A stretch of 64,000 bases of DNA from Streptomyces sp. ERV7 (lineage in GTDB: Bacteria > Actinomycetota > Actinomycetes > Streptomycetales > Streptomycetaceae), in NCBI RefSeq assembly GCF_001653515.1, contig NZ_LYOY01000051.1, positions 888,001 through 952,000 of the forward strand, in the 5' to 3' direction. The notes under the pieces are model-generated. The model saw only the letters and a list, made by a program, of their open reading frames with translations, did no database searches and was not told where the DNA came from. Below, in pieces: positions 7,263 through 61,510 of this stretch. The position numbers were made by a program, and so were the translations under genes. Within the stretch, counting starts at the first letter, position 1. Every line of letters starts with the position of its first letter.

Positions 7263-7476
7263 ATGGATCATTCCCCCGTTTCTGGTGGCCGGTGTTTCCC
7301 CGTTTGGTACCTCATTCCGCTGAATATCAGTAGGCTCGTTGATCGCTGTTCGGCTGAATGTCCGATACCGCCACATTCTGTGGCCGTAAAGGGATTGTTG
7401 ACGCGGGATACGCGGGACGCGTCCCGCTCCCCGAGGCCGTCGGCGCGGCCGGCTTCCGCAGGAGCGCCACCTGGGC

Positions 7477-7524
7477 GAAAAAAGGATCAAGGCTCCACCC
7501 AAAAGTGCAGGTGAAGCCTTGATC
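7477..7524 (-). terminator. Strong intrinsic terminator
   Basis: The arms at 7485-7499 and 7510-7524 (GATCAAGGCTCCACC and GGTGAAGCCTTGATC) pair over 14 of 15 positions. On the minus strand they are followed by a run of six Ts (As at 7478-7483 on the plus strand). It lies about 380 bp beyond the katA stop. Confidence 0.8.
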
Positions 7525-12295: not shown

Positions 12296-12820
12296 GTGAC
12301 TTCGACCTCGACGCCGGGCCTCGCCCGGTTCAACACCTCCGACGACAGCACGGCGCTCGCCGCGCTCCACGAGGTGTGCGCCAGCTCGGTATGGGGGAGC
12401 AAGCTGCTCGCCCGGCGCCCGTACACCACCGCCGACGAGCTCTTCACCGCCAGCGACGCCGCCATGGCCGAGCTGGACGTGAAGGACCTCGAAGAGGCGA
12501 TGGCGGGGCACGCGCCGATCGGGCGGCCGAAGCCCGGCGACCCGACCTCCGCCCGTGAGCAGCGGGGGATGGCCGGCGCCACCGAGGAGCTCAGGGCCGA
12601 GATGCTCGAACTCAACCTGGCGTACCAGGACAGGTTCGGCCATGTCTTCCTGATCTGCGCCACCGGGGCCACCGGTGAGCAGATGCGCGACGCGATGAAG
12701 GCCAGGATCGGCAACACCGCCGAGGCGGAGCGCGAGATCGTGCGCGCCGAACTCGGGAAGATCAACCGAATCCGGCTGACCCGTCTCGTGGAAACAGCAG
12801 AAGAAGAGGACAGGGACTGA
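12296..12820 (+). CDS. uraD: OHCU decarboxylase
   Basis: Decarboxylates 2-oxo-4-hydroxy-4-carboxy-5-ureidoimidazoline to S-allantoin, the last step of urate breakdown. The 174-residue all-helical protein shows the family features FNTSDDSTALAALHEVCAS, ARRPY near residue 37, a catalytic-type histidine in GHAPIGRP and the SAREQRG loop near 85, ending with helices containing RIGNTAEAEREI. A GTG start at 12296 follows CGGAGG by six bases. The stop shares one base with the uraH start, so uraD-uraH-transporter form one operon under the shared operator. Confidence 0.92.
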   Translation: MTSTSTPGLARFNTSDDSTALAALHEVCASSVWGSKLLARRPYTTADELFTASDAAMAELDVKDLEEAMAGHAPIGRPKPGDPTSAREQRGMAGATEELRAEMLELNLAYQDRFGHVFLICATGATGEQMRDAMKARIGNTAEAEREIVRAELGKINRIRLTRLVETAEEEDRD

Positions 12821-13209
12821 TGAGCACCGCGACCACCGCTTCGGTGTCCACGCACATCCTGGACACCAGCATCGGACGCCCCGCCGAGGGCGTCGCCATC
12901 TCGCTCGCCGCCCGTTCGGGCCGCGACGCCGGGTGGGTGACGCTCGGCGGCTCCGCGACCGACGCGGACGGGCGCTGCAAGGACCTCCCGGCGCTGCCGG
13001 AGGGCACGACCCATGTGCGACTCGACTTCGAGGTCGAGTCCTACTTCGAAAAGAAGCAAGCCGAGGCGCAGCAGGACGCCCCCCGCGTAAGGGACAGCGG
13101 TGCGTTCTTCCCGGAGGTGGCGATCACGTTCGCCGTCGTGCCGGGCGAGCACTTCCACGTACCGCTGCTGCTCAACCCGTTCGGCTACTCCGTTTACCGA
13201 GGGAGCTAG
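12820..13209 (+). CDS. uraH: 5-hydroxyisourate hydrolase (transthyretin-like)
   Basis: Hydrolyses 5-hydroxyisourate, the uricase product, to OHCU. The 129-residue protein has the HIUase hallmarks: THILDTSIGRPAEGV at the N-terminus, a central GRCKDLP, FPEVAITFAV, the HFHVPLLLNPFGYSVYRGS ending and the diagnostic C-terminal tetrapeptide YRGS. It shares one base with the uraD stop. In vitro homologues are tetramers with a central active-site channel; nothing here suggests otherwise. The gene sits between uraD and a transporter. Confidence 0.95.
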   Translation: MSTATTASVSTHILDTSIGRPAEGVAISLAARSGRDAGWVTLGGSATDADGRCKDLPALPEGTTHVRLDFEVESYFEKKQAEAQQDAPRVRDSGAFFPEVAITFAVVPGEHFHVPLLLNPFGYSVYRGS

Positions 13210-13214
13210 CAGAC

Positions 13215-14819
13215 ATGACCGGCCCCGGGAGGACCGGGGAGCCGGACGAGCCGCTGGAACCGGTCGGCCCCGGCGAGCCGGGCGGGCCCGTGGGGCCCGG
13301 GGAGACCGCCTCGACCGAGCCGCCCGGCCCGCCACAGAAGCGGAAGCTCGCGTTTCCGAGTGCGCTGACCGTTCTCGCGATCGTCACCGTCGCGGTGTGG
13401 CTGCTCGCCTTCCTCATTCCCTCCGGCCAGTACGACCGCAACGACAAGGGGGCACCGGTCCAGGGCACCTACCACCGCGTGTCGTCGGGCCAGAGCTTCG
13501 TCGACCGTCTCAACGACCTCTTCCTGGCGCCGGTCAACGGTCTGTACGGCATCCGCGACACCGCCTCCGGCGAGGTCGGCCCCAGCCTCACCGGCGATCT
13601 GTACGGAAGCGCGGGAGTGTTCCTCTTCGTCCTGGCGATCGGCGCGTTCATCACCGTCGTCTTCGCCACCGGCGCCCTGGACCGGGGCATCGAGCGCCTG
13701 GCCCACCGGCTGCGCGAGCGCGGGACCCTGCTGATCGCGGGGGTGATGGTGGTCTTCTCGGTCCTGGGCACGGTGGAGGGTTTCGCCGAGGAGACGCTCG
13801 GCTTCTACGGGCTGCTCGTGCCGATGATGCTCGCGCTCGGCTACGACCGGATGGTGGCGGTGGGCACCGCCATCCTGGGCGCGGGGGTGGGCGTGCTGTG
13901 CTCGACCGTCAACCCCTTCGCGACGGGCGTCGCCTCCTCCGCCGCCGACATCTCGCTGGGCGACGGCATCGCGCTGCGCTTCGTGATGTGGCTGGTGCTG
14001 ACGGCGGTGACCATCGCGTATGTCGTCCGCTACGCCCGGCGCGTACAGAAGGTTCCGGCGCGTTCGCTGAGCGGCTTCCTGCCCGGGGACCGCGAACTGA
14101 ACGCGACGGACGCGGGCGAGGCTCCCGAGCTCACCGGCACGCACAAGGCCGTGCTCGTGGTGCTCGGCCTCGTCTTCGCCTTCATGATCTTCTCGGTGGT
14201 GCCGTGGTCGAGCGCGCTGACCGGCAAGGCCGACGCCACTCCGTACTCCTTCGAACTGGGCTGGTCCTTCCCGCAGTTGGCGGCGCTCTTCCTGTGCGCG
14301 GCGGTGCTGGTCGGCCTGGTGGCCCGGCTGGGCGAGCAGAAGACCAGCTCGACGATCATCCAGGGCGCGGGGGACTTCATCTCCCCCGCCCTCGTCATCA
14401 TGCTGGCCCGCGGTGTCACCGTGATCATGAACAACTCCCGGATCACGGACACGGTCCTGCACTCCATCGAAGGCGTGGTGAAAGGGACCTCGTCGGGCCT
14501 GTTCGCCATCATCGTCTTCGTGGTGAACCTGCCGCTCGCCTTCCTGATCCCCTCCACCTCCGGCCATGCCACCCTCGCCATGCCGATCCTCGCCCCGCTG
14601 GCCGACTTCGCGGGCGTCTCGCGCGCGGTGGTCGTCACCGCCTGGCAGGCGGCCAGCGGGTGGATGAACCTGTGGGTGCCGACGACGGCCGTGACGATCG
14701 GCGGCGTCGCCCTCGCCAAGGTCGGCTACGACAAGTACCTGCGTTTCGTCTGGCCGCTGCTGGCCATCCTGTTCGTGCTGATCTGCGGCTTCGTGGCGCT
14801 GGGGGCGGCGCTGACGTGA
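13215..14819 (+). CDS. DcuC/YfcC-family membrane transporter
   Basis: A 534-residue inner-membrane permease. Residues 1-47 form a cytoplasmic Pro/Gly/Glu-rich tail, and about 12 hydrophobic segments follow, starting at [22 protein letters not shown]. YfcC-family marks include [37 protein letters not shown] and [22 protein letters not shown]. Known relatives carry C4-dicarboxylates or amino-acid antiport substrates. Its place five bases after uraH under the urate operator suggests it moves a purine-degradation intermediate or product (for example allantoin, allantoate or a dicarboxylate). That substrate is inference. Confidence 0.85.
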
Positions 14820-14844
14820 GGGCGGGGCCCCGGGCCGCCCGGGC

Positions 14845-15234
14845 CTAGGGCCTGCGGTGACCCGGATGGTCGCCCGCCAGCGCGTCCGTCACCAGGCGCA
14901 CCCCGCGGGCGAGGCGGCCCAGCTGGTCCAGCTCCGTCGCGTACATCCGGATGGTGTTCTCGATGACCGCCTCCGCCACGCCCAGCGTGGGCAGCTCGGC
15001 CCGGCTGGTCTGGAGGGCCACCCGGACCGCGCGCATCTCGTGCTGGAGCTGGAGCTGCGCGTGCCGGGCGAGGATGACGTGGTGGCGGGTGAGCGGTGAG
15101 TAGCCGGCGTAGCGGGCCGGCAGCAGGTCGCGCAGCCAGCGGGTGGCCGTGCGTTCCCAGTCCCGCGTCCCGGGTTCCTTGACCTGACAGGGCCAGTCCG
15201 GGCTGAGCGCGATGGTGGGGGCCGTGTGGGGCAT
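14845..15234 (-). CDS. Conserved hypothetical protein, helical
   Basis: A 129-residue soluble protein that I do not recognise. The sequence is mostly amphipathic helix: RTATRWLRDLLPARYAGYSPLTRHHVILARHAQLQL (split here across several helices), then a long helix around VAEAVIENTIRMYATELDQLGRLARG. There is no signal peptide, metal motif or DNA-binding motif. The start at the ATG of MPHTAPTIAL has only a weak GACGAGA upstream. The 335-bp gap upstream holds AT-rich repeats that may drive it. It is convergent with the uraDH operon, 25 bp from the transporter stop. Confidence 0.65.
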   Translation of the reverse strand: MPHTAPTIALSPDWPCQVKEPGTRDWERTATRWLRDLLPARYAGYSPLTRHHVILARHAQLQLQHEMRAVRVALQTSRAELPTLGVAEAVIENTIRMYATELDQLGRLARGVRLVTDALAGDHPGHRRP

Positions 15235-15461
15235 TCTCGTCGCTTCCGAAGTTGTCGAACTCTGATCGAGAGGTGGGAGGGGGGCGGCCCCGGCCTAGGG
15301 GTTGGCCGAGGCCGCCCGTGGGCGTCCGCCCGGATCCGAAAGCCTCGATCGGACTTCCGGCTGACGCGAGGAGGGGGGCGTCACGTCGGCTGTCCGCTCT
15401 GGGAAGGCGTGGGGAAGCGCCTTCCTTGGCATCTGGGGGATCGGGGGATCGCCACCGCCTC

Positions 15462-15508
15462 AGTAAACATATATACCGTTGAGTAAACAAGGGTATGAAA
15501 AAATTCAT
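15462..15508 (-). promoter_or_regulatory. AT-rich regulatory patch with 20-bp-spaced repeats
   Basis: Within the gene-free stretch 15235-15569, AGTAAACA occurs at 15462-15469 and again at 15482-15489, exactly two helical turns apart, flanking ATATATACC. Just beyond is ATGAA-AAAA-TTCAT (15495-15508). This is the only strongly AT-rich sequence for kilobases and is a likely promoter/operator for the 14845-15234 gene. The rest of the gap (15235-15460) shows nothing recognisable. Confidence 0.5.
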
Positions 15509-15569
15509 GCACTCGTACGGTGTGAAGATCCCAAGGAGCCGGGCGGGCGAATCGGGTCCTAATCGGGGC

Positions 15570-16487
15570 CTAGAGGAAGAAACCGTGCTGGTCGGCGGCC
15601 TGCTCGTACTCTTCCAGCCGCGCCTGCGTCCGCTCCGGATCGGCGTCCGCCATCGCCTGGAGCAGGGCCGCCGCGAGCACGCCCGGTGCCGCGTACGAGT
15701 CGAAGACCAGCCGTGACCCGGTCCCGGCGGTCAGGGCCACATCGGCCTCGTCGACCAGCGGGCCAAGGGTCGTGTCCGTGATCAGCGCGATGCGCAGCCC
15801 CGCGCTGCGGGCCGCCCGCAGCGCCGCCAGGCTCTCCTTGGCGTGCCGGGGCATGGCGAAGGCGAGCACCCAGGTGCCGCCCGCCGAGCGGGACTGCAGC
15901 AGGGCGTCGTAGGCGACGCTGCCGCCGCGCGTCACCAGCCGCACATCGGGGTGGATACGCCGGGCCGCGTACGCGAAGTACTCCGCCAGGGACACCGAGA
16001 TCCGCAGTCCGAGGACGGTCAGCGGCACCGAGCCGGCCAGCTCGCGGCCGATCTCCAGGACCTGGTTGGTGTTGGCCACCAGCCTGCGCACGTTCTCCAG
16101 GTTCTCGATCTCCGCGTCCACCGCCGCCTGGAGCTCGTTGTGCCGGATCTCCTCACGGGTCTCGGGCGCGACCGCGACCGCGCTGAGGGCGATCGGCTGG
16201 AGCACGTCCCGCAGTGCGGGATAGCCGCTGTAGCCGAGGGACACGGCGAAGCGCGTCACGGACGGCTGGCTCACCCCGGCCCGCTCCGCGAGCTCGGTGA
16301 TCGAGAGGAACACGGCCTCGGTCAGGTGGTCGATCAGGTACTGGGCGATGCGCCGCTGCCCCGGGGAGAGGCGGTGGCCGTCGAAGAGGGCCCGGACCCG
16401 GTCCGCCGCGGGGCGCTCGTGGTCCGACGCCTGCCCGCTCGGCGTGATCGCGGCCGCCTGGGCGCGCGCCTTCTGCCCCGATGACAC
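15570..16487 (-). CDS. RpiR-family transcriptional regulator (HTH + SIS)
   Basis: A 305-residue regulator. The N-terminal HTH_6 domain reads LSPGQRRIAQYLIDHLTEAV and then SITELAERAGVSQPSVTRF. The C-terminal SIS sugar-phosphate domain spans about 125-260 and includes VLGLRISVSLAEYFAYA and TWVLAFAMPRHAKES. The GTG at 16487 is chosen because GAAGGAGG precedes it by six to seven bases; the ATG at 16511 has no site and would put that Shine-Dalgarno inside the gene. RpiR proteins respond to phosphosugars or, in some actinobacteria, to amino-acid or purine cues. Its place among urate genes makes it a candidate local regulator (inference). Confidence 0.88.
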   Translation of the reverse strand: MSSGQKARAQAAAITPSGQASDHERPAADRVRALFDGHRLSPGQRRIAQYLIDHLTEAVFLSITELAERAGVSQPSVTRFAVSLGYSGYPALRDVLQPIALSAVAVAPETREEIRHNELQAAVDAEIENLENVRRLVANTNQVLEIGRELAGSVPLTVLGLRISVSLAEYFAYAARRIHPDVRLVTRGGSVAYDALLQSRSAGGTWVLAFAMPRHAKESLAALRAARSAGLRIALITDTTLGPLVDEADVALTAGTGSRLVFDSYAAPGVLAAALLQAMADADPERTQARLEEYEQAADQHGFFL

Positions 16488-16729
16488 CGGCGGGCCTCCT
16501 TCTCGTGCCATGTGTGTTCAAAACATAGCTCACCGCCGTGGTGGCCCGGCGCCCGTTCCACCGGTGGCGACAGGCACGTATTCGAGACACCGGTGGCTTG
16601 GTGTGCTGGACGTGACGAGCCGGAGGGTGTTCCCTGTGCCGCGCTCGCGCGGGGGAAGCGGCCGGGGGGCCGCACGCGCGCCGTCAACGCACGGACCGGG
16701 TGGCCGGTTCGTGGGATCAGGGGGGACAC

Positions 16730-18136
16730 ATGGCCAGAGCAGGACGTCCGCAGGGGACTCCGAAGGGCAGAACGGAAGCCGCCAACGACCTCGCGCGCTT
16801 TCTGCGCGAGGTGACCCGCGGCCTGACGGTGCGGGAGCTCGCACACCGGTACGGCGGCGGCAAGACGGCCTGGAGCGAATACCGCTCGGGGGCCCGGATC
16901 ATCGCGCTCGGGCGCCTCAACACCGTACTCAAGGACCAGATCCGCGAGCCCCGCCGCCAGGGGCTCCTCGCCGAGGCCCGCCGGCTGCACGACCGGGCGC
17001 TCACGGCCGAGGCGTCGGGCCGCCCCGCGCCGAGCGTGGAGGAGGCACTCCGTCAGGCACGCACCGACCTCGCCGAGTCGGGCCGACTGGTGGAGAACCT
17101 GCTGGCGATGGTGACACTGCTCCGCGAACGCGTCGACGACGGCGGGGCCGGGTACGCGAGCGCCGCCGCCGGACGGCCGAGCGCCTCCCCCGCGCCCGAG
17201 GAGGCGAGGTCACCGGACGCGGTACCCGAGCAAGCGGAATCCACCGCGACCCAGGAGGTGCGGCTGCGCCTGGACCAGGCCGTCGACCAGTTGGCGGCGG
17301 CACGGTCCGTGGAGGCGGCGGCACGACGAGCCGTCGCGGACGCCGAGGCCCAGCGGGACACGGCGGCGCGGGAAGCAGTCGAAATCCAGCCGGATACCCG
17401 GGAGTTGAGCGAAGGCGAGGGCGCGCCGCACACGGATCCCGAGCGGAGCGCCCCCGGCCTGTCGGCCGTCCCGGGCGGCGTCCGCCGGGTCCCGGCCGTC
17501 GCCGACGCCGCGCTCTGCGTCCAGTTGGTCCGCATCGGGAACGCCCTGGCGCAACAGCGCGCCGACGCACGGTGGTTGTGGAAGCGGGTTCGCCGCCTTC
17601 CGTCCGGCTCTCTGACCGGGCCGGTCTCCTTCCGTCCGTACGTCGTCGAGGGCGTGGTCCTGGAACGGCTGGACAGGTCCGTCGCCGTGCCCGCCTCGCG
17701 GGCGCCCGCCCTCCCTGCCGTGCCCGACCCGCGGCCCGGGCGGGGCGCCAGAAGAACGCTCGCCCTCCTGGGGACGGTCACCGCCCTCGCCCTGCTCGCC
17801 GCGGCCACCCTGGCCGGGGTCGTCCTCGGGCGGCACCACACCTCGGCCGCGCCCGGGACGACGGTCTACCAGGAGGGCCCCGGCGCCCTCCTCCCGGCGC
17901 CCAGCGGTGGGCCCGGCACGGCGAGTCCGTCGCCGTCCGCGTCGCCGTCGCCGTCCGCGTCGACACCCTCGCCCGGCACCGGTCGCACCTCCGCCCGACG
18001 TTTCCCGCCCCACCCGCCCCGTGATCCTCGGCCAGAACCAGTACGGCAAAGCAGAGAACCGCGTCGTCAAGATCACGCGGGACGGCGACACGCACCACAT
18101 CAAGGACCTGAACGTCTCGGTCGCCCTCTCCGGTGA
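16730..18136 (+). CDS. HTH membrane-anchored protein with lost 3' end
   Basis: The reading frame encodes 468 residues, but only about the first 420 look native. Residues 1-75 contain an HTH-like segment (LTVRELAHRYGGGKTAWSEYR). An Ala/Glu-rich coiled-coil-like region follows (about 105-230). A single transmembrane helix (LALLGTVTALALLAAATLAG, about 343-366) leads into an external Pro/Ser repeat (SPSPSASPSPSAS). From about 17990 the frame runs out of phase into the uricase gene and stops at 18136. The native C-terminus is therefore missing, so the gene is probably a broken fusion rather than a true overlap. The ATG at 16730 follows GGGGGGA. Confidence 0.6.
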   Translation: MARAGRPQGTPKGRTEAANDLARFLREVTRGLTVRELAHRYGGGKTAWSEYRSGARIIALGRLNTVLKDQIREPRRQGLLAEARRLHDRALTAEASGRPAPSVEEALRQARTDLAESGRLVENLLAMVTLLRERVDDGGAGYASAAAGRPSASPAPEEARSPDAVPEQAESTATQEVRLRLDQAVDQLAAARSVEAAARRAVADAEAQRDTAAREAVEIQPDTRELSEGEGAPHTDPERSAPGLSAVPGGVRRVPAVADAALCVQLVRIGNALAQQRADARWLWKRVRRLPSGSLTGPVSFRPYVVEGVVLERLDRSVAVPASRAPALPAVPDPRPGRGARRTLALLGTVTALALLAAATLAGVVLGRHHTSAAPGTTVYQEGPGALLPAPSGGPGTASPSPSASPSPSASTPSPGTGRTSARRFPPHPPRDPRPEPVRQSREPRRQDHAGRRHAPHQGPERLGRPLR

Positions 18137-18938
18137 CATGGAGGACGTCCACTACTCCGGCTCGAACGCGAACGTCCTGCCGACGGACACCACCAAGAAC
18201 ACGGTGTTCGCCTTCGCCAAGGAGCACGGCATCGAGTCCGCCGAGCAGTTCGGCATCCACCTCGCCCGTCACTTCGTAACGTCGCAGGAGCCGATCCACC
18301 GGGCGCGCATCCGCATCGAGGAGTACGCCTGGGAGCGGATCGCCACCTCCGACGCCAACTCCAAGTTCATCGGCTCGGACGAGGTACGCCACTCCTTCGC
18401 CCGCAAGGGCCAGGAGCTGCGCACCACCCAGATCACCTTCGACGGTGAGAACTGGGAGGTCATCTCCGGCCTGAAGGACCTGACGGTCATGAACTCCACC
18501 AACTCGGAGTTCTGGGGCTACGTCAAGGACAAGTACACGACGCTGAAGGAGGCGTACGACCGCATCCTGTGCACCGACGTCTGCGCCGCCTGGCGTTACA
18601 ACTGGACCAGCGACGAAGACCGGATGCCCCACTGGGAGAAGTCGTACGAGCAGGCCAAGAAGCACATCCTGCAGGCCTTCGCCGAGACGTACTCGCTCTC
18701 CCTCCAGCAGACCCTGTACCAGATGGGCTCGCGGGTCATCAACAGCCGCAGCGAGATCGACGAGATCCGCTTCTCGCTGCCGAACAACCACCACTTCCTG
18801 GTCGACCTGGAGCCGTTCGGGCTCAAGAACGACAACGAGGTCTACTTCGCGGCCGACCGGCCCTACGGTCTGATCGAGGCCACCATCCTGCGGGACGGCG
18901 TCGAGCCGCGCATCCCGGTCGACATGACCATCCTCTGA
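18021..18938 (+). CDS. pucL: Urate oxidase (uricase) with lost or altered 5' end
   Basis: Oxidises urate to 5-hydroxyisourate and H2O2. From the GTG at 18021 it has 305 residues: ILGQNQYGKAENRVVKI with catalytic Lys10, SNANVLPTDTTKNTV with the catalytic threonine, SQEPIHRARIRIEEY, SLQQTLYQMGSRVI and PNNHHFLVDLEPFG with the third triad residue. It ends in DMTIL. The codons just upstream (RPTRP) read like native uricase N-terminus, but beyond them the sequence belongs to the HTH/membrane gene, and no ribosome site or promoter is visible. Either it starts leaderless or from 17907 in the Arg-rich frame, or it has lost its expression signals through a deletion. Confidence 0.85.
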   Translation: MILGQNQYGKAENRVVKITRDGDTHHIKDLNVSVALSGDMEDVHYSGSNANVLPTDTTKNTVFAFAKEHGIESAEQFGIHLARHFVTSQEPIHRARIRIEEYAWERIATSDANSKFIGSDEVRHSFARKGQELRTTQITFDGENWEVISGLKDLTVMNSTNSEFWGYVKDKYTTLKEAYDRILCTDVCAAWRYNWTSDEDRMPHWEKSYEQAKKHILQAFAETYSLSLQQTLYQMGSRVINSRSEIDEIRFSLPNNHHFLVDLEPFGLKNDNEVYFAADRPYGLIEATILRDGVEPRIPVDMTIL

Positions 18939-23979: not shown

Positions 23980-24345
23980 TCAGACGGCCCAGCCGGGATC
24001 CCGCCCGCTCAGCCCGACCACCCGGTCGAGCAGCGGAGCGTCCTCGGGCACCTCGACGACCGGCCCGAACGCGGGGGCGCGCATCGCGTCGTCGCGGCTC
24101 GCGTCGAAGAAGCCGTGGACGGCCTCCAGGCTCGCGGCGCCCGGGTCGTACGGCTGGCCGGTCGCCCGGGCCAGGTCCCAGCCGTGGACGACCAGTTCGT
24201 TGAGCGCGACCACACCCGCGATCGCGGCGGGGAAGGTGATGCCGCCCGCCTGGGTGTCGCCGCCCCTGCTGGCCGCGCGGATCGCCCGTACCCCCGCCCC
24301 GGCCCCCGCGTCGGCCTTCGGGCTCACCCGGCGCGGCGAAAGTCT
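23980..24345 (-). pseudogene. 5'-truncated mycothiol-dependent maleylpyruvate isomerase-like (TIGR03086) remnant
   Basis: About 105 residues of the C-terminal half of a TIGR03086-type DinB-fold protein remain: AGGITFPAAIAGVVALNELV, VHGWDLARATGQPY, LEAVHGFFDASR, and an intact stop at 23980. The N-terminal half with the metal-binding helices is missing; upstream the frame turns to low-complexity Arg/Ala/Gly sequence and runs into the histidine-kinase promoter. No start with a ribosome site is visible. It is a remnant rather than a small gene. Confidence 0.6.
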
Positions 24346-35854: not shown

Positions 35855-36949
35855 ATGAACACCTACCGAGGCTCCGCCCGGGCCACCGTCCTGCGCACCG
35901 TCGGCACCCGCGAGCGCCGCTCGCACCTGACCGCACCCCGTGTCCCCACCGTCGGCATCGACATCGGCGGCACCAAGGTGATGGCGGGCGTCGTCGACGC
36001 CGACGGCACCATCCTGGAGAAGATCCGCACCGAGACGCCGGACAAGTCCAAGAGCCCCAAGGTCGTCGAGGACACCATCACCGAGCTGGTCCTCGACCTC
36101 TCGGACCGCCACGACGTGCACGCGGTGGGCATCGGCGCGGCCGGCTGGGTCGACGCCGACCGCAGCACCATCCTCTTCGCCCCGCACCTCGCCTGGCGCA
36201 ACGAGCCGCTGCGGGACGCCCTGCAGTCCCGGCTCGCCGTCCCGGTCATGGTCGACAACGACGCCAACACGGCCGCCTGGGCCGAGTGGCGGTTCGGCGC
36301 GGGCCGCGGCGAGGACCACCTCGTCATGATCACGCTCGGCACCGGCATCGGCGGCGCGATCCTGGAGGACGGCCGGGTCAAGCGCGGCAAGTACGGCGTG
36401 GCCGGCGAGTTCGGCCATATGCAGGTCGTGCCCGGCGGCCACCGCTGCCCGTGCGGCAACCGCGGCTGCTGGGAGCAGTACAGCTCGGGCAACGCCCTGG
36501 TCCGCGAGGCCCGCGAGCTGGCGGTCGCGGACTCGCCGGTCGCGTACAACATCCTGGAGCGGGTCAAGGGCAACATCCCGGACATCACCGGGCCGCTGAT
36601 CACCGAGCTCGCGCGCGAGGGCGACGCCATGTGCGTCGAGCTGCTCCAGGACATCGGCCAGTGGCTCGGCGTCGGCATCGCCAACCTCGCGGCCGCCCTC
36701 GACCCGTCCTGCTTCGTCATCGGCGGTGGCGTCAGCGCGGCCGACGACCTGCTGATCGGCCCGGCCAGGGACGCCTTCAAGCGCCAGCTGACCGGCCGCG
36801 GCTACCGGCCCGAGGCCCGGATCGCCAAGGCGCAGCTGGGCCCGGAGGCGGGCATGGTCGGCGCGGCGGACCTCGCCTGGGGGGGGGCGGGGTCTTCGGG
36901 GCGGGCGACGCGGCCCACACCATCCCGCCGCTCGGCGCCTTCGGGATGA
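35855..36949 (+). CDS. ROK-family sugar kinase with foreign C-terminal tail
   Basis: Likely glucokinase-type enzyme phosphorylating the sugar imported by the upstream ABC system. It has [16 protein letters not shown] (phosphate-binding), [13 protein letters not shown] with the catalytic aspartate, [19 protein letters not shown] and the ROK zinc motif [10 protein letters not shown]. Native sequence runs to GMVGAADLA at about residue 341. From 36875 the frame enters a nine-G run and then out-of-frame monooxygenase DNA, adding about 23 foreign residues before stopping at 36949. The core is complete, so activity may survive. The ATG at 35855 is inside a weak ribosome context; an earlier start is less likely. 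Confidence 0.85.
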
Positions 36950-37650
36950 ACTCCGGCATCGCGGACGCCCACAACCTCGCCTGGAAGCTCGCCCAGGTGC
37001 TGCGCGGCACGGCGGGCGAGGGGCTGCTCGACACATACCACGCCGAGCGCCACCCCGTCGCCGCCTTCACCATGCGCCAGGCCCTGCTCCGGCTGAAGAA
37101 CCCGGGCCTGCACTGGAACCCGTTCGCCGGGGCCCAGCGCCAGGAGGCGGGGATGGCCAACACCCCCGTCGTGCACCTGGGATACCGGTACGACTCGGCC
37201 GCCGTCGTGGACGCCAGGACCGAGATCCCCTCCACCGAGGACGTCGCCGCCAGTCTCGACGGCGCCCCCGGCTCGCGCCTGCCGCACCACTGGGTGACGC
37301 GGGCCGGCGACCGCGTCTCGACCCTGGACCTGGCGGCGGCCCGCTGGACCCTGCTGGCAGGGCCGGACGGCGCCGTCTGGTGCGAGACGGCCGCCAAGAT
37401 CGCCGCGGAGGCCGGTCTCGACCTCGCCGTGCACCGGATCGGCGGAGCCGGCGCGGACATCGACGACCCGACGGCCGACTGGGCCCGAGCGGCCGGCACC
37501 GGTGCCGATGGCGCACTGCTGGCCAGGCCCGACGGTTTCGTCGCCTGGCGTGCCGAGGAGGCCGCGGCCGACCCCGGCCGGACCCTGTCCGACGTGTTCT
37601 CGGCGGTGCTCGACCGCCCCGGCCTCGAACGAACCCGTGGTGCACAGTGA
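36880..37650 (+). pseudogene. 5'-truncated FAD-dependent aromatic monooxygenase (PHBH-type)
   Basis: About 255 C-terminal residues of an FAD_binding_3 hydroxylase remain: [20 protein letters not shown] (the GD motif that binds FAD ribityl, normally following a strand ending RVFLA), [23 protein letters not shown] and a thioredoxin-like C-terminal domain. The N-terminal Rossmann GxGxxG half (about 280 residues) is absent; the sequence joins the ROK kinase at a G-run. Relatives include polyketide hydroxylases such as RdmE. The stop overlaps a GTG of the methyltransferase frame. No start codon with a ribosome site is available, so it is scored as a remnant. Confidence 0.75.
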
Positions 37651-37685
37651 CACCCGATACGCCCCTTTCGGAGGAGCACACCGTC

Positions 37686-38498
37686 ATGGAAGCCGTTTCC
37701 TACACCGCCCAGTGGACCGCCGCAGCCCGCGCCCTCGAAACGGAGCGCGACGACGCGTTGTTCAGCGACCCCTACGCACGCGCCGTGGCCGGCGAGGCCG
37801 GTTTCAAGCTCCTTGAGCGGTACGCGAGCCCGGTCACCGTGGCGTACCTGGCGCTGCGCACGGCCTATCTCGACCAGGTGCTGCTGAACTCGCTGGAGGC
37901 GCACGAGATCGACCAGGTGGTCTTGGTCGCCGCCGGCATGGACACCCGCCCCTACCGGCTGAGCTGGGGCCGCAAGGTGTCCGTGTTCGAACTCGACCGG
38001 TCCGCCCTGCTGGACGTCAAGAGCGAACTCCTCGCGGACGCGGAGCCGGCCGAGGGCCTGACCCGCACCACCGTCGGCGTCGATCTCGCCGGTTCCTGGC
38101 AGTCGGCCCTGCTCGACGCGGGCTTCAGCACCGAGGCGCGCACGCTGTGGATCGTCGAGGGCCTGCTGTACTACCTGGAGGAGGGCGCGGTGCGCGGGCT
38201 CCTCGAATCCCTGGCCAGGCTCTCCGGCCCCGGCGCGCTGGTGGCGGGCGACCTCATCAGCACGGCCGCGCTCAGCAACCCGGTGGCCCGCCCCTTCATC
38301 AAGGCGCTGGAGGAGGACGGGGCCCCGTGGCTCTTCGGCACCGACACCCCGGAGGACCTGCTGGCCGAGTGCGGCTGGAGCGTCCAGGAGATCAAGCAGC
38401 CGGGTGAGGAGGGGTCCGGCCGGTGGCCGTACCTCGTCCTGCCGCGCCATGTGACGGACGTCCCGCGCAACTTCCTGTTCACCGCCGTGCTGAGCTGA
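37686..38498 (+). CDS. SAM-dependent methyltransferase (LCM/TIGR00027 family)
   Basis: A 270-residue class I methyltransferase of the leucine-carboxyl-methyltransferase-like family. Marks are TARALETERDDALFSDPYAR at the N-terminus, VVLVAAGMDTRPYRL (SAM loop), VFELDRSALLDVKSEL and LWIVEGLLYYLEE. The ATG at 37686 has GGAGGA ten bases upstream; GTG 37647, overlapping the monooxygenase stop, is an alternative adding 13 residues. With the broken hydroxylase it looks like a leftover of a small tailoring cassette (oxidation plus O-methylation). Substrate unknown. A strong terminator follows. Confidence 0.87.
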   Translation: MEAVSYTAQWTAAARALETERDDALFSDPYARAVAGEAGFKLLERYASPVTVAYLALRTAYLDQVLLNSLEAHEIDQVVLVAAGMDTRPYRLSWGRKVSVFELDRSALLDVKSELLADAEPAEGLTRTTVGVDLAGSWQSALLDAGFSTEARTLWIVEGLLYYLEEGAVRGLLESLARLSGPGALVAGDLISTAALSNPVARPFIKALEEDGAPWLFGTDTPEDLLAECGWSVQEIKQPGEEGSGRWPYLVLPRHVTDVPRNFLFTAVLS

Positions 38499-38520
38499 CG
38501 CCCTCGCACCACTGCGAATC

Positions 38521-38558
38521 AGGGGCCCCACCGGTCGGAGATCTCCGGTGGGGCCCCT
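38521..38558 (+). terminator. Terminator of the methyltransferase gene
   Basis: Perfect 14-bp stem AGGGGCCCCACCGG/CCGGTGGGGCCCCT (38521-38534, 38545-38558), loop TCGGAGATCT, 22 bp after the stop. Confidence 0.8.
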
Positions 38559-38613
38559 CGGCACGGGGAAAACCTGGTGTGTGGGGCCGACGGAAGCGGG
38601 TAACGTCTTTGTC

Positions 38614-38643
38614 ATGTTCTTCCAGACGCCGATTTACGAGTGA
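38614..38643 (+). CDS. Nine-residue leaderless micro-ORF (leader peptide candidate)
   Basis: ATG at 38614 opens MFFQTPIYE and a TGA stop. A TAACGT -10-type box (38601-38606) ends seven bases before the ATG, as in leaderless Streptomyces genes. Seven bases after the stop codon begins a nested hairpin (38650-38691), and the DUF6243 gene starts at 38741. The arrangement resembles an attenuator leader, but the peptide has no run of one amino acid that would name a signal. Whether it is translated is unknown. Confidence 0.4.
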   Translation: MFFQTPIYE

Positions 38644-38649
38644 GAGCGT

Positions 38650-38691
38650 GACGGGCCCCCGCTGACGTCCTTTGACGTCGCCGCGCCCGTC
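38650..38691 (+). promoter_or_regulatory. Nested hairpin after the micro-ORF
   Basis: Outer arms GACGGGC (38650-38656) and GCCCGTC (38685-38691) enclose GACGTC-CTTT-GACGTC (38664-38679). It could be an attenuator or a leader structure for the DUF6243 gene. Confidence 0.45.
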
Positions 38692-38740
38692 CCCCACCGA
38701 TGAATCCGCACATCACCACACATCACCATCGGGAGAACCC

Positions 38741-38956
38741 GTGACCGACAGCAAGAACGTCAACAACCCCGTGGGCCAGGGCGGCGGCCAGCGCAAGAAG
38801 CAGTCCCGCGCCGAACGGCAGAACAACGGTCCGTACCGCAACCTCGACCGCCAGGGTGCCGCCGACAAGAAGGCGGAGCTGGTGCGCAAGATGCGCGAGA
38901 AGGCGGCCGCGGCCAAGGGCGCCGGGCAGACGGGCGACGACACCGCACAGAGCTGA
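38741..38956 (+). CDS. DUF6243-family small basic protein
   Basis: A 71-residue, highly charged, Gln/Asn/Lys-rich protein, typical of a Streptomyces-specific family: NNPVGQGGGQRKKQSRAERQ, then NLDRQGAADKKAELVRKMRE. It is probably helical in the second half and disordered in the first, without a signal peptide. The GTG at 38741 follows GGGAGA by about five bases. Function unknown; the basic, unstructured make-up would suit RNA or ribosome binding, but that is a guess. Confidence 0.8.
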   Translation: MTDSKNVNNPVGQGGGQRKKQSRAERQNNGPYRNLDRQGAADKKAELVRKMREKAAAAKGAGQTGDDTAQS

Positions 38957-38988
38957 CGCACCGCCGCCGCAGGGCGGCACCGCACGGG

Positions 38989-39025
38989 GCGGGGCCCGGA
39001 CCGCGAGGCGCGGACCGGGCCCCGC
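38989..39025 (+). terminator. Terminator of the DUF6243 gene
   Basis: Perfect 11-bp stem GCGGGGCCCGG/CCGGGCCCCGC (38989-38999, 39015-39025), followed by TT. Confidence 0.7.
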
Positions 39026-39199
39026 TTGCCGTACCGGGCGCGGCCGGTCCCGCTCAGCTCTTCGGCCGAGCACCGCACTCCCCGCCCGATCCGGCCTCGC
39101 GCGGACCCTCCACGGAGCCGGAGCTCTGCCACATGGCCGGACCACTACGGCCAGGACCCCGCCTCCAGGGCCTGTGGCGAGATGTGGGAGCGTGAGCCG

Positions 39200-40504
39200 G
39201 TGAGTGAGAGTAAGCCGAACACCCTGCAATACCGCTCTGACGGGCCAGAAGACGCACCGGTTCTGGTCATGGGCCCATCGCTTGGTACCACCTGGCACAT
39301 GTGGGACCGCCAGATACCCGAGCTCTCCGGGAGCTGGCGGATCGTCCGCTTCGACCTCCCTGGCCACGGCGGCGCCCCGGCCCACCCGGCGGCCTCGGTG
39401 TCCGAGCTCGCCGACCGGCTGATCGCCACCCTCGACGAGCTGGGTGTGCAGCGCTTCGGCTACGCGGGCAGCGCGATCGGCGCGGCCGTCGGCGCGGACC
39501 TGGCCCTGCGCCACCCGGGGCGGCTCGCCTCGCTGGCGCTGGTCGCCGCTTCCGCCCGGTTCGGCACCGCCGACGAGTTCCGCCAGCGGGGTGTGGTCGT
39601 CCGCAGCAACGGGATGGACCCGATGGCCCGCAGCGCGCCCGAGCGCTGGTTCACCCCCGCCTACGCGGCGGCCCAGCCCGCCATCGTGGAGTGGGCCGTC
39701 CAGATGGTCCGCACCACCGACCCCGGCTGCTACATCGCCGCCTGCGAGGCGCTGGCCGCCTTCGACATCCGCGCCGACCTCGGCCGTATCGGCGTCCCGA
39801 CGCTGGTGCTGGCCGGCGCCGAGGACCGGGTGACCGGGCCCGGCGCCGCGCGCACCCTGGTCGCCGGGGTGCCCGACGCCCGGCTCGCGGTGGTGCCCGG
39901 TGCCGCGCACCTGGCGCCCGTGGAGCAGCCCGCCGCCGTCACCGACCTGCTCGTCCACCACTTCTCGACGGCCTGGCACGAGACGCTCCCGGCGATCCCG
40001 GTACCGGCCGCGCCCGCGGTCGCCGCGGCCGCGCAGCCGCCGCAGGCCCCGTACACCCTGCACGTGCCCGTCCCCATGGCCGCCGAGCCCGCGCCGGCCC
40101 CGGCGCCCGCGCCCGCCGGGCGGCCCGACCCGTACGAGCAGGGCATGAAGCTGCGCCGCGAGGTCCTCGGGGACGCGCGCGTGGACGAGGAGACCGCCGA
40201 CGCGGACGGCTTCACCGGAGACTTCCAGGAGCTCGCCACCCGCTACGCCTGGGGCGAGGTGTGGGCCCGCGACGGGCTGGACCGGCGCACCCGGGCCGTG
40301 GTCGCGCTCGCCGCGCTGGTGGCGGGCGGGCACCTCGACGAGGTCGCGGCCCACACCCGCGCCGCGCTGCGGGCCGGGCTCACCCCCGACGAGATCAGGG
40401 AAGTGCTGCTCCAGACGTCGGTCTACTGCGGCCTCCCGGCGGCGGGCGCGGCCTTCCGGGCGGCCGCCGCGGTCATCCGCGAGGAGACCACCCCGCAGCC
40501 CTGA
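39200..40504 (+). CDS. pcaL: 3-oxoadipate enol-lactonase/4-carboxymuconolactone decarboxylase fusion
   Basis: A bifunctional enzyme of the beta-ketoadipate pathway (protocatechuate branch). Residues 1-270 are an alpha/beta-hydrolase (PcaD): PSLGTTWHMWDRQIPEL, DLPGHGGAPAHP and a nucleophile-elbow region FGYAGSAIGAAVGADLALRH. A Pro/Ala linker (about 275-312, APAPAPAPAG) leads to the PcaC domain (AhpD-like): ELATRYAWGEVWARDGLDRR, AHTRAALRAGLTPDEI, and VYCGLPAAGAAFRA at the end. The GTG at 39200 has GGGAG nine bases upstream. Other pca genes are not next to it here, unusual for a gene normally inside a pca operon. Confidence 0.9.
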   Translation: MSESKPNTLQYRSDGPEDAPVLVMGPSLGTTWHMWDRQIPELSGSWRIVRFDLPGHGGAPAHPAASVSELADRLIATLDELGVQRFGYAGSAIGAAVGADLALRHPGRLASLALVAASARFGTADEFRQRGVVVRSNGMDPMARSAPERWFTPAYAAAQPAIVEWAVQMVRTTDPGCYIAACEALAAFDIRADLGRIGVPTLVLAGAEDRVTGPGAARTLVAGVPDARLAVVPGAAHLAPVEQPAAVTDLLVHHFSTAWHETLPAIPVPAAPAVAAAAQPPQAPYTLHVPVPMAAEPAPAPAPAPAGRPDPYEQGMKLRREVLGDARVDEETADADGFTGDFQELATRYAWGEVWARDGLDRRTRAVVALAALVAGGHLDEVAAHTRAALRAGLTPDEIREVLLQTSVYCGLPAAGAAFRAAAAVIREETTPQP

Positions 40505-45903: not shown

Positions 45904-46125
45904 TCACTCCTCGCGGAGAGGGACCGTCAGATACGACGGGTCTGACGCGGGCGAGGAGAAGGTCAGCTGCGCGCCGGTCGGGTTGCGCTCGTTGTAGAGC
46001 GGGTCGACGGTGTCCACGGAAGGTGTAGGGGGCGTTGCTGACCGGCTTGCCGAGGCCGAGCGGGCCCTCGTCGTACAGATATGCGACGAGGGTGCCGCTC
46101 TCCTTGGTGGTGCACCGGTGGGGCT
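45904..46125 (-). pseudogene. Xaa-Pro dipeptidyl-peptidase/CocE-type C-terminal remnant
   Basis: Two minus-strand frames join into the end of a secreted S15/CocE hydrolase: ESGTLVAYLYDEGPLG, KPVSNAPYTF, then after a one-base frameshift near 46020, DTVDPLYNERNPTGAQLTF and PSYLTVPLREE with a stop at 45904-45906. All upstream sequence is missing; the fragment begins right where the L,D-transpeptidase gene ends. Truncation plus frameshift marks it as a dead gene. Confidence 0.65.
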
Positions 46126-47349
46126 CTAGCCCGCGGTGGTGGAAGCCCCGCTCAGGGCGCTCTTGGCCTGCCACTGCTGCCAGCTGAGGTTCCACTCGCC
46201 GTAGCCGTTGTTGAGCGCCTGGGTGCCCTTGGCGTCGTCGCCGGTGATCTCGAACGGGTCGCCGGGCTGCACCATGCCGTACAGCTCCTTGGCGTTGGCG
46301 TCGCTCATGCCGATGCAGCCGGAGCTGTGGTTGGTGTTGCCGAAGTAGTCGGCGTTCCAGGGCGCGGCGTGCGCGTACATCCCGGACCAGGTGAGGCGCA
46401 TCGAGTAGTCGACCATCTTGTTGTAGGCGTCGCCGAGCCCGACCGTCTCGGAGTTCATGTTGATCGTGCCCTCCTTCGCCATCAGGACGGCCTTGCCGCG
46501 CCAGGACGCCTTGTCGCCGCCGGGCGTGCCCCCCGACACCGGGATGTCCTTGACCACGGCGCCGTCGCGGTACAGCTTGAGGTGGTGGTTGTCGAGGCTG
46601 ACCTTGACGACCTGGTTCTTGCCGATGGTCACGTTGGTCGTGTAGTCGCGCACGAACCAGCCGCTGCCCGAGTCGACGCCGTTGAGGTCCGCGTTGAGCG
46701 TGACCTTGGTCCCGCTCTTCCAGTACTCCTTGGGCCGCCAGTCGACACGGGACTTGCCCGAGTAGTCCTCCATCCAGCCCCAGGACCCCTCGGTGTTGTT
46801 CGAGGTGGTCACCTTGAGCTGCTTCTCCACCGCCGCCTTGTCCTTGACCGGGTGGTCGAAGACGATCGACAGCGGCTGGCCGACGCCGACCGTGGAGTTC
46901 TTGCCGGGGACCAGGGTCAGCTTGTTCACCTTGTCCGCGGCGGCGGTCGCGAAGCCGGCCTTGGCGGTGGAGCCCTTGTCGTCCTTCGCCTCCACGGCGT
47001 ACGTGGTGCCGGGCGCGGCGTTGCGGTCCGAGGTCCAGGTCCTGCCGTCGGCGGCTATCTTCCCCGCCAGCTTCCCGCCCTTGGCGTCGGTGACCGTGAC
47101 CTGCTGGAGCTTGCCCCCGGCCAGGGTCACCTTCACGGGCTCGCCGGCCTTCGCCTGCTGCCCCGTCAGGTTCACCGAGATCTCGGCCTTCTTGGCGGAT
47201 GCGATGTCGGCGCCCCCCTTGCCGTCACCGGAGCCGCCCGAGCCACCGGAGCAGGCGGTGAGCGCCGCGGCGAGGACCGCGGTGCCGGCGATGACGGCGT
47301 TACGGACCGGGCGGCGGCGGAGCGGGGTGTGACGGCGTATGCGGCTCAA
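46126..47349 (-). CDS. L,D-transpeptidase lipoprotein (YkuD, Ig-like domains)
   Basis: A 407-residue cell-wall cross-linking enzyme, probably making 3-3 links in peptidoglycan. A lipoprotein signal ends in LAAALTAC, followed by a Gly/Ser linker. Two Ig-like domains span about 45-240 (VNLTGQQAKAGEPVKVTLAG; LSIVFDHPVKDKAAV). The YkuD domain spans about 255-380 with HLKLYRDGAVVKDIPVSGG and the catalytic motif HSSGCIGMSDANAKEL. A C-terminal Trp-rich tail is WNLSWQQWQ. TTG at 47349 is chosen because CGGAGG lies eight bases upstream and the basic signal start follows. Confidence 0.92.
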   Translation of the reverse strand: MSRIRRHTPLRRRPVRNAVIAGTAVLAAALTACSGGSGGSGDGKGGADIASAKKAEISVNLTGQQAKAGEPVKVTLAGGKLQQVTVTDAKGGKLAGKIAADGRTWTSDRNAAPGTTYAVEAKDDKGSTAKAGFATAAADKVNKLTLVPGKNSTVGVGQPLSIVFDHPVKDKAAVEKQLKVTTSNNTEGSWGWMEDYSGKSRVDWRPKEYWKSGTKVTLNADLNGVDSGSGWFVRDYTTNVTIGKNQVVKVSLDNHHLKLYRDGAVVKDIPVSGGTPGGDKASWRGKAVLMAKEGTINMNSETVGLGDAYNKMVDYSMRLTWSGMYAHAAPWNADYFGNTNHSSGCIGMSDANAKELYGMVQPGDPFEITGDDAKGTQALNNGYGEWNLSWQQWQAKSALSGASTTAG

Positions 47350-52782: not shown

Positions 52783-53781
52783 ATGGACTTCGGACTCGTC
52801 CTGCAGACCGACCCGCCCGCCTCGACCGTCGTCGGCCTCATGCGCCGCGCGGAACGCAACGGCTTCCGCTACGGCTGGACCTTCGACTCGGCGGTCCTGT
52901 GGCAGGAGCCGTTCGTCATCTACAGCCGCATCCTGGAGCACACGCGGCAGATGCACGTCGGCCCGATGGTGACCAACCCGGGCACCAGGACCTGGGAGGT
53001 CACCGCCTCCACCTTCGCCACCCTCAACGACATGTACGGCAACCGCACCGTCTGCGGCATCGGCCGCGGCGACTCCGCGATGCGCGTCGCCGGGCGCAAG
53101 CCCAACACGCTGGCCCGCCTGGGCGAGGCCATCGGCGTGATCCGCGACCTCGCGGAGGGCCGCGAGGCCGAGGTCGACGGACAGCGCCTGAAGCTGCCCT
53201 GGGTCAGGGACGGCAAACTGCCCGTCTGGATGGCGGCGTACGGTCCGAAGGCGCTGGCCCTGGCCGGTCGGCAGGCCGACGGCTTCATCCTCCAGCTCGC
53301 GGACCCGTTCCTGACGGAGTGGATGGTCAAGGCGGTCCGCACGGCCGCCGTGGAGGCCGGGCGCGACCCCGCCTCGGTGACCATCTGCGTCGCCGCCCCG
53401 GCGTACGTCGGCGACGACCTCGCCCACGCCCGCGAGCAGTGCCGCTGGTTCGGCGGCATGGTCGGCAACCACGTCGCGGACCTGGTGGCCCGGTACGGCG
53501 AGCACTCGGGCCTGGTGCCCGAGGCGCTCACCGACTACATCAAGGCGCGCCAAGGCTACGACTACAGCCACCACGGCCGCACCGACAACCCGGACACCGC
53601 CTTCGTCCCCGACGAGATCGTCGACCGCTTCTGCCTCCTGGGCCCCGTCGAGGCGCACATCGAGAAGCTGAAGGCGCTGCGCGACCTGGGCGTCGACCAG
53701 TTCGCGGTGTACGCGATGCACGACGCGCGCGAGTCGGTCATCGACGCGTACGGGGAGCGGGTGATCCCGGCGCTGAGCTGA
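52783..53781 (+). CDS. F420-dependent LLM-class oxidoreductase (TIGR03842-like)
   Basis: A 332-residue luciferase-like TIM-barrel protein. It starts MDFGLVLQTDPPASTVVGLM and contains FGWTFDS-like sequence FRYGWTFDSAVLW, VGPMVTNPGTR, GIGRGDSAMRVAG, PVWMAAYGPKALALAGRQAD and the ending GVDQFAVYAMHD. TIGR03842-type members travel with hydantoinases. A dihydropyrimidine dehydrogenase is absent here, so this F420 enzyme may supply the redox step on the pyrimidine or hydantoin ring (inference). AGGAGC lies upstream. Confidence 0.87.
   Translation: MDFGLVLQTDPPASTVVGLMRRAERNGFRYGWTFDSAVLWQEPFVIYSRILEHTRQMHVGPMVTNPGTRTWEVTASTFATLNDMYGNRTVCGIGRGDSAMRVAGRKPNTLARLGEAIGVIRDLAEGREAEVDGQRLKLPWVRDGKLPVWMAAYGPKALALAGRQADGFILQLADPFLTEWMVKAVRTAAVEAGRDPASVTICVAAPAYVGDDLAHAREQCRWFGGMVGNHVADLVARYGEHSGLVPEALTDYIKARQGYDYSHHGRTDNPDTAFVPDEIVDRFCLLGPVEAHIEKLKALRDLGVDQFAVYAMHDARESVIDAYGERVIPALS

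Positions 53782-59030: not shown

Positions 59031-61510
<2,480 letters not shown>

Follow-up and report, generated by a model that had tools for sequence, protein, structure and literature searches.

A uricase gene parted from its start in a Streptomyces assembly very probably reflects a misplaced contig

The junction between a membrane-protein gene and the uricase gene in the assembly of Streptomyces sp. ERV7 is very probably an assembly error, produced by a misplaced contig, and not rewired biology; the evidence favours DNA that was placed wrongly, and the uricase gene itself shows no clear loss. The window, meaning the whole stretch of 64,000 nucleotides that was analyzed, covers positions 888001-952000 of contig C51 of this assembly (G000) and is a single unbroken stretch; neither seam contains a run of N. 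At ~18000 the frame of the membrane gene, followed from 16730, exits its Ser/Pro tail and the uricase is read in another frame from ~18001 (window frames). Past this seam the membrane frame stays open until a chance stop codon whose last base is 18136, and DNA similarity to the uricases of relatives begins at ~18023. The sequence-only reading had described a membrane HTH gene meeting the uricase in a different frame at about 17990-18020, and the letters do join two frames at ~18000; for the membrane protein termed HTH there, searches of Pfam and NCBIfam found no family. The seams are two in number, the second lying at ~13221, right after the uraH stop codon (13207-13209). The suspect joins at window positions 13221 and 18000 correspond to C51:901221 and C51:906000. 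The features concerned are the following.

12296..12820, plus strand: intact uraD, OHCU decarboxylase (PF09349, 133 bits, cut-off 24; NF010372, 193.6 bits, cut-off 124)
12820..13209, plus strand: intact uraH, 5-hydroxyisourate hydrolase, ending YRGS-stop (PF00576, 110.8 bits, cut-off 25.3; TIGR02962, 104.1 bits, cut-off 87.45)
13199..13221, plus strand: end of uraH and displaced uricase start, with GAGGGAG as likely ribosome site and ATGACCG as uricase bases 1-7
13222..18000, no strand: putatively misplaced block of ~4779 bp, edges uncertain by a few bases; not between uraH and uricase in the relative G323, where it forms one locus ~840 kb off
13215..14819, plus strand: DcuC-family transporter ORF (PF03606, 325.5 bits, cut-off 23.1)
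14845..15234, minus strand: small 129-aa ORF, without a family above cut-off
15570..16511, minus strand: RpiR-family regulator (PF01418 HTH_6, 52.4 bits, cut-off 28.3; PF01380 SIS, 33.4 bits, cut-off 25)
16730..18000, plus strand: front part of the membrane gene, truncated within the Ser/Pro tail, matching residues 1-528 of the 793-aa G323 protein
18001..18938, plus strand: uricase without its first seven bases, with an in-frame GTG at 18021 (TIGR03383, 359.5 bits, cut-off 168.4, profile 2-283 of 283; PF01014, 212.9 bits)

The uricase matched the model for cofactor-free uricases (TIGR03383) across the full profile and above its cut-off. It is followed on its 3' side by an 8-oxoguanine deaminase gene and then a xanthine permease gene. 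That the rest of the urate pathway is intact, as the sequence-only reading had stated, holds for uraD, uraH, the deaminase and the permease, which all scored above curated cut-offs. A single uricase gene and a single HIU hydrolase gene were found in the genome, which is incomplete (~96%). Besides the uraD of the window, a second stretch of the OHCU-decarboxylase family is present at C40:1205937-1206353, giving two matches over the cut-off. The transporter ORF scored 240.3 bits with the YfcC model NF008611, under the cut-off of 500.

The uricase had been thought to have lost its start region and ribosome site, but an ATGACCG start could be identified at 13215-13221, behind uraH. When window position 13221 was joined to 18001, the sequence read MTVSRPTRPVILGQNQYG, in frame and with an ordinary long-form start, and removal of the block left an ordinary uricase N-terminus, MTVSRPTRPVILGQ. 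Because the flanks rejoin to a normal N-terminus, the uricase start is not lost, and ~4.78 kb separates it from the gene. Real rewiring or silencing on the one hand and dropped DNA on the other had been proposed for the seam; an assembly fault is indeed favoured, but the ~4.78 kb appears to be misplaced rather than dropped, as the flanks join in frame. A promoter scan of 17700-18100 found none, which carries little weight in Streptomyces.

The normal arrangement was determined from 29 loci of relatives (L002-L030), which are those returned from 61 genomes (30 loci, one being the window's own); this count leaves out other uricase matches, some of which are second copies. uraH directly precedes uricase in 29/29 of these loci, and in all 29 the end of uraH (TACCGAGGGAGCTAG) lies 15-62 bases ahead of the LGxNQYG or NQYGK motif of uricase. 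Among the uricases of relatives, some start with MPTILGQ and others with a longer N-terminus, for instance MTVNSRPARPVILGQ. The 23 bases at 13199-13221 were found in seven named Streptomyces records and lead straight into uricase in every one, although some of these records may be the same species as other relatives counted (L132 and L024 start alike). The nearest relative found was G323, in which uraD-uraH adjoins uricase at 96% identity to the window (contig C1 of G323, 7065723-7066643 and 7066646-7067620). Compared with the uraD-uraH-uricase operon of Streptomyces, the genes and the strand are the same here, but 4.8 kb parts uraH from uricase, after about the second uricase codon.

In none of nine further relatives' loci that were fetched, G323 aside, does a DcuC gene lie between uraH and uricase. 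In five of the nine it lies 3' of uricase on the same strand; these five were chosen since earlier searches had shown both genes, and the other four have no uricase within the stretch. In L073, L074, L075, L076 and L077 the DcuC-family transporter gene shares the strand of uricase and lies ~4-14 kb downstream of it, and the transporter is perhaps a functional neighbour of purine breakdown in five relatives. The sequence-only reading had named relatives sharing the arrangement as the result that would speak for an ancestral order. None was found among the relatives examined, and an ancestral arrangement was rejected, since no relative examined has the block between uraH and uricase.

The block matched G323 at C1:7911166-7907024 (92%) and 7906759-7906257 (81%), on the other strand and ~840 kb from uricase, so that the segments joined in the window lie far apart in a near relative. 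There, the transporter gene comes after an M20 peptidase gene and the membrane gene is whole, encoding 793 aa (L072:7346-9727, minus strand). A Tectonin match at residues 538-597 of this protein reached 24.2 bits, below the cut-off of 30. The outer C-terminal part of the whole protein contains repeated sequence, and the protein may be a sensor whose outer domain resembles a propeller. Among the matches listed for 392 genomes of the larger genus group, G323 alone gave one match running from the transporter to the membrane gene. When genome contigs were scanned with the front part of the membrane protein, in a search that may omit near records, no relative could be confirmed.

Contigs of the same assembly tile this home locus. 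Followed down the G323 coordinates, contig C1 of the present assembly runs to its position 90147, ending at G323 7919066. Contig C61 as a whole corresponds to G323 7918835-7911159, the block in C51 to 7911166-7906257 and C40:1184553-1189623 to 7906195-7901001. Contig C90 corresponds to 7900984-7900838 and 7899502-7893697, with ~1.3 kb of G323 between them without a match in C90, and C40 from position 180066 continues at 7893603 downward. From C61 through the block and the C40 piece to C90, neighbours are separated or overlap by under 70 bases.

The ends of these contigs coincide with the edges of the displaced segments. C61, of 7669 bp, stops 20 bases into the transporter gene; it carries a transporter GTG start like that of G323, and the window copy is without that GTG. 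The ATG of the transporter ORF in the window belongs to uricase, and, judged from G323, the transporter's own start would be on C61. The left edge of the block meets the end of C61, and the right edge leads over the C40 piece to the end of C90. The very end of C90 (6448 bp) has 12 exact bases in common with the end of the C40 piece; in a random control, at least 12 shared bases occurred in 13 of 5000 pairs of like size, and in the other three of the four contig-end comparisons the overlaps, of 9, 7 and 7 bases, were unconvincing. Parts of the membrane gene are found on C51 and on C40: for residues 541-793 of the G323 protein the match is to the C40 piece (83%), and neither the window nor C61 nor C90 gave a hit. 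The loss of the C-terminus of the membrane gene, as it had been described, thus holds for the cut at the seam, but the C-terminal part is present on C40 from ~1184553. Misplaced contigs are indicated by block edges that fall at contig ends, together with the splitting of one gene over two large contigs. From the seams, synteny, tiling and contig ends observed, we infer that the joins arose during assembly rather than in the cell.

Assemblies tend to break at repetitive or G+C-rich spots. The right seam lies within Ser/Pro codon repeats (17927-17962), and the left seam lies ahead of a G+C-rich leader. In the true chromosome, uraD-uraH-uricase would probably be intact, and the locus comprising the M20 peptidase, DcuC transporter, RpiR and membrane-protein genes would be found elsewhere, as in G323. 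This second locus seems to have been broken by the assembly where it is repetitive or rich in G+C, and two of its pieces would have been set in wrong places: 4.8 kb in C51, separating ATGACCG from TTTCCC of uricase, and 5.1 kb in C40. One cause would then account for the pieces of the broken locus, which may have been left as small contigs or wrongly placed.

Misassemblies in an Illumina draft of S. leeuwenhoekii, attributed there to short reads and repetitive gene clusters, were shown by PacBio sequencing (PMC4487206). The two cases appear alike in that pieces of the chromosome were misjoined in a high-G+C actinomycete draft and were seen by comparison with another sequence; they differ in that PacBio reads of the same strain served there, whereas a related species and contig ends served here.

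Some observations do not fit a simple misjoin. The C40:1184553-1189623 stretch (L103) spans 5.07 kb and includes the C-terminal part of the membrane gene; its flanks lie elsewhere in G323, and it, too, is probably a misplaced contig. The site in C40 is, however, not a clean empty site: the flanks correspond to G323 5609982 and 5613837, with 3.85 kb of other DNA between them in G323, most of which had no match in the assembly among the matches listed. Moreover, on both outer sides of the home locus the neighbouring sequence is found within a large contig and not at its end, namely C1 at 90147 (1,197,768 bp) and C40 at 180066 (1,761,277 bp); the joins at C1:90147 and C40:180066 are either wrong or really rearranged. 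Comparison of the window with G323, up to position 53138, revealed further breaks at 7417/7485, 24266/24309, 36877-39221, 46110-46129 and 48080. At these places G323 has extra DNA of ~17.6 kb (window 24266-24309), 4.5 kb (7417-7485) and 16.3 kb (48080), and the window has 2.3 kb of its own at 36877-39221.

A real relocation or duplication, in which the cell itself moved or copied the block to the start of uricase, perhaps through end joining, is improbable. It would agree with the unbroken window free of N, with the other rearrangements between this genome and G323, and with the left join, where the end of C61 and the uricase start have at least GAC in common. A block present twice could also break contigs at its edges and so explain the end of C61, but a second copy was not found in the genome. 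Excision, for its part, should have left C61 continuous with the remainder of the membrane gene, which is not the case. The displaced neighbouring 5-kb piece that meets the end of C90 would be left unexplained, and the arrangement occurs in none of the relatives examined. A real move would require that two neighbouring pieces were displaced and that, by chance, their edges met the ends of two further contigs.

An insertion by a mobile element is far less probable still, even though a multi-gene block inside a conserved operon might suggest one. No transposase, integrase or other mobility family was identified in the four gene products of the block, no repeat pair linked the block ends among 20 of 25 direct families and 25 of 40 inverted pairs listed, and a possible target duplication is at most 2 bases; the block ends inside two genes, and only 2 of 72,556 plasmid records matched, in the transporter part only. 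The insertion of a mobile element, looked for by mobility gene, matched ends and target duplication, was therefore rejected. With regard to possible insertion sites, Rfam at gathering score gave zero matches for RNA elements in 13000-18500, and the sole tRNA of the window is at 59031-59107. A true gene fusion yielding a membrane-tethered uricase would be in line with two abutting coding stretches, but the frames differ and the membrane frame stops at 18136. As the uricase N-terminus is needed only from ILGQ on, no tether is made. With no single open frame across the seam, the fusion was rejected unless an indel lies at the seam, and it is given next to no credence.

If, against expectation, the block had really moved, the transporter would stand under the uricase ribosome site and the only uricase found would be left without one. 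Uricase would then start weakly at GTG 18021 or at an upstream in-frame GTG such as 17907, or urate breakdown would be lost, and the locus would offer an example from nature of a housekeeping catabolic gene severed from its start. The joins at C51:901221, C51:906000, C40:1184553 and C40:1189623 are to be distrusted by users of the genome. Where a conspicuous seam between genes is seen in a single assembly, its cause can be a misplaced contig, and as a general check the home of the displaced piece may be located in a relative, followed by a search for contig ends of the same assembly at its edges.
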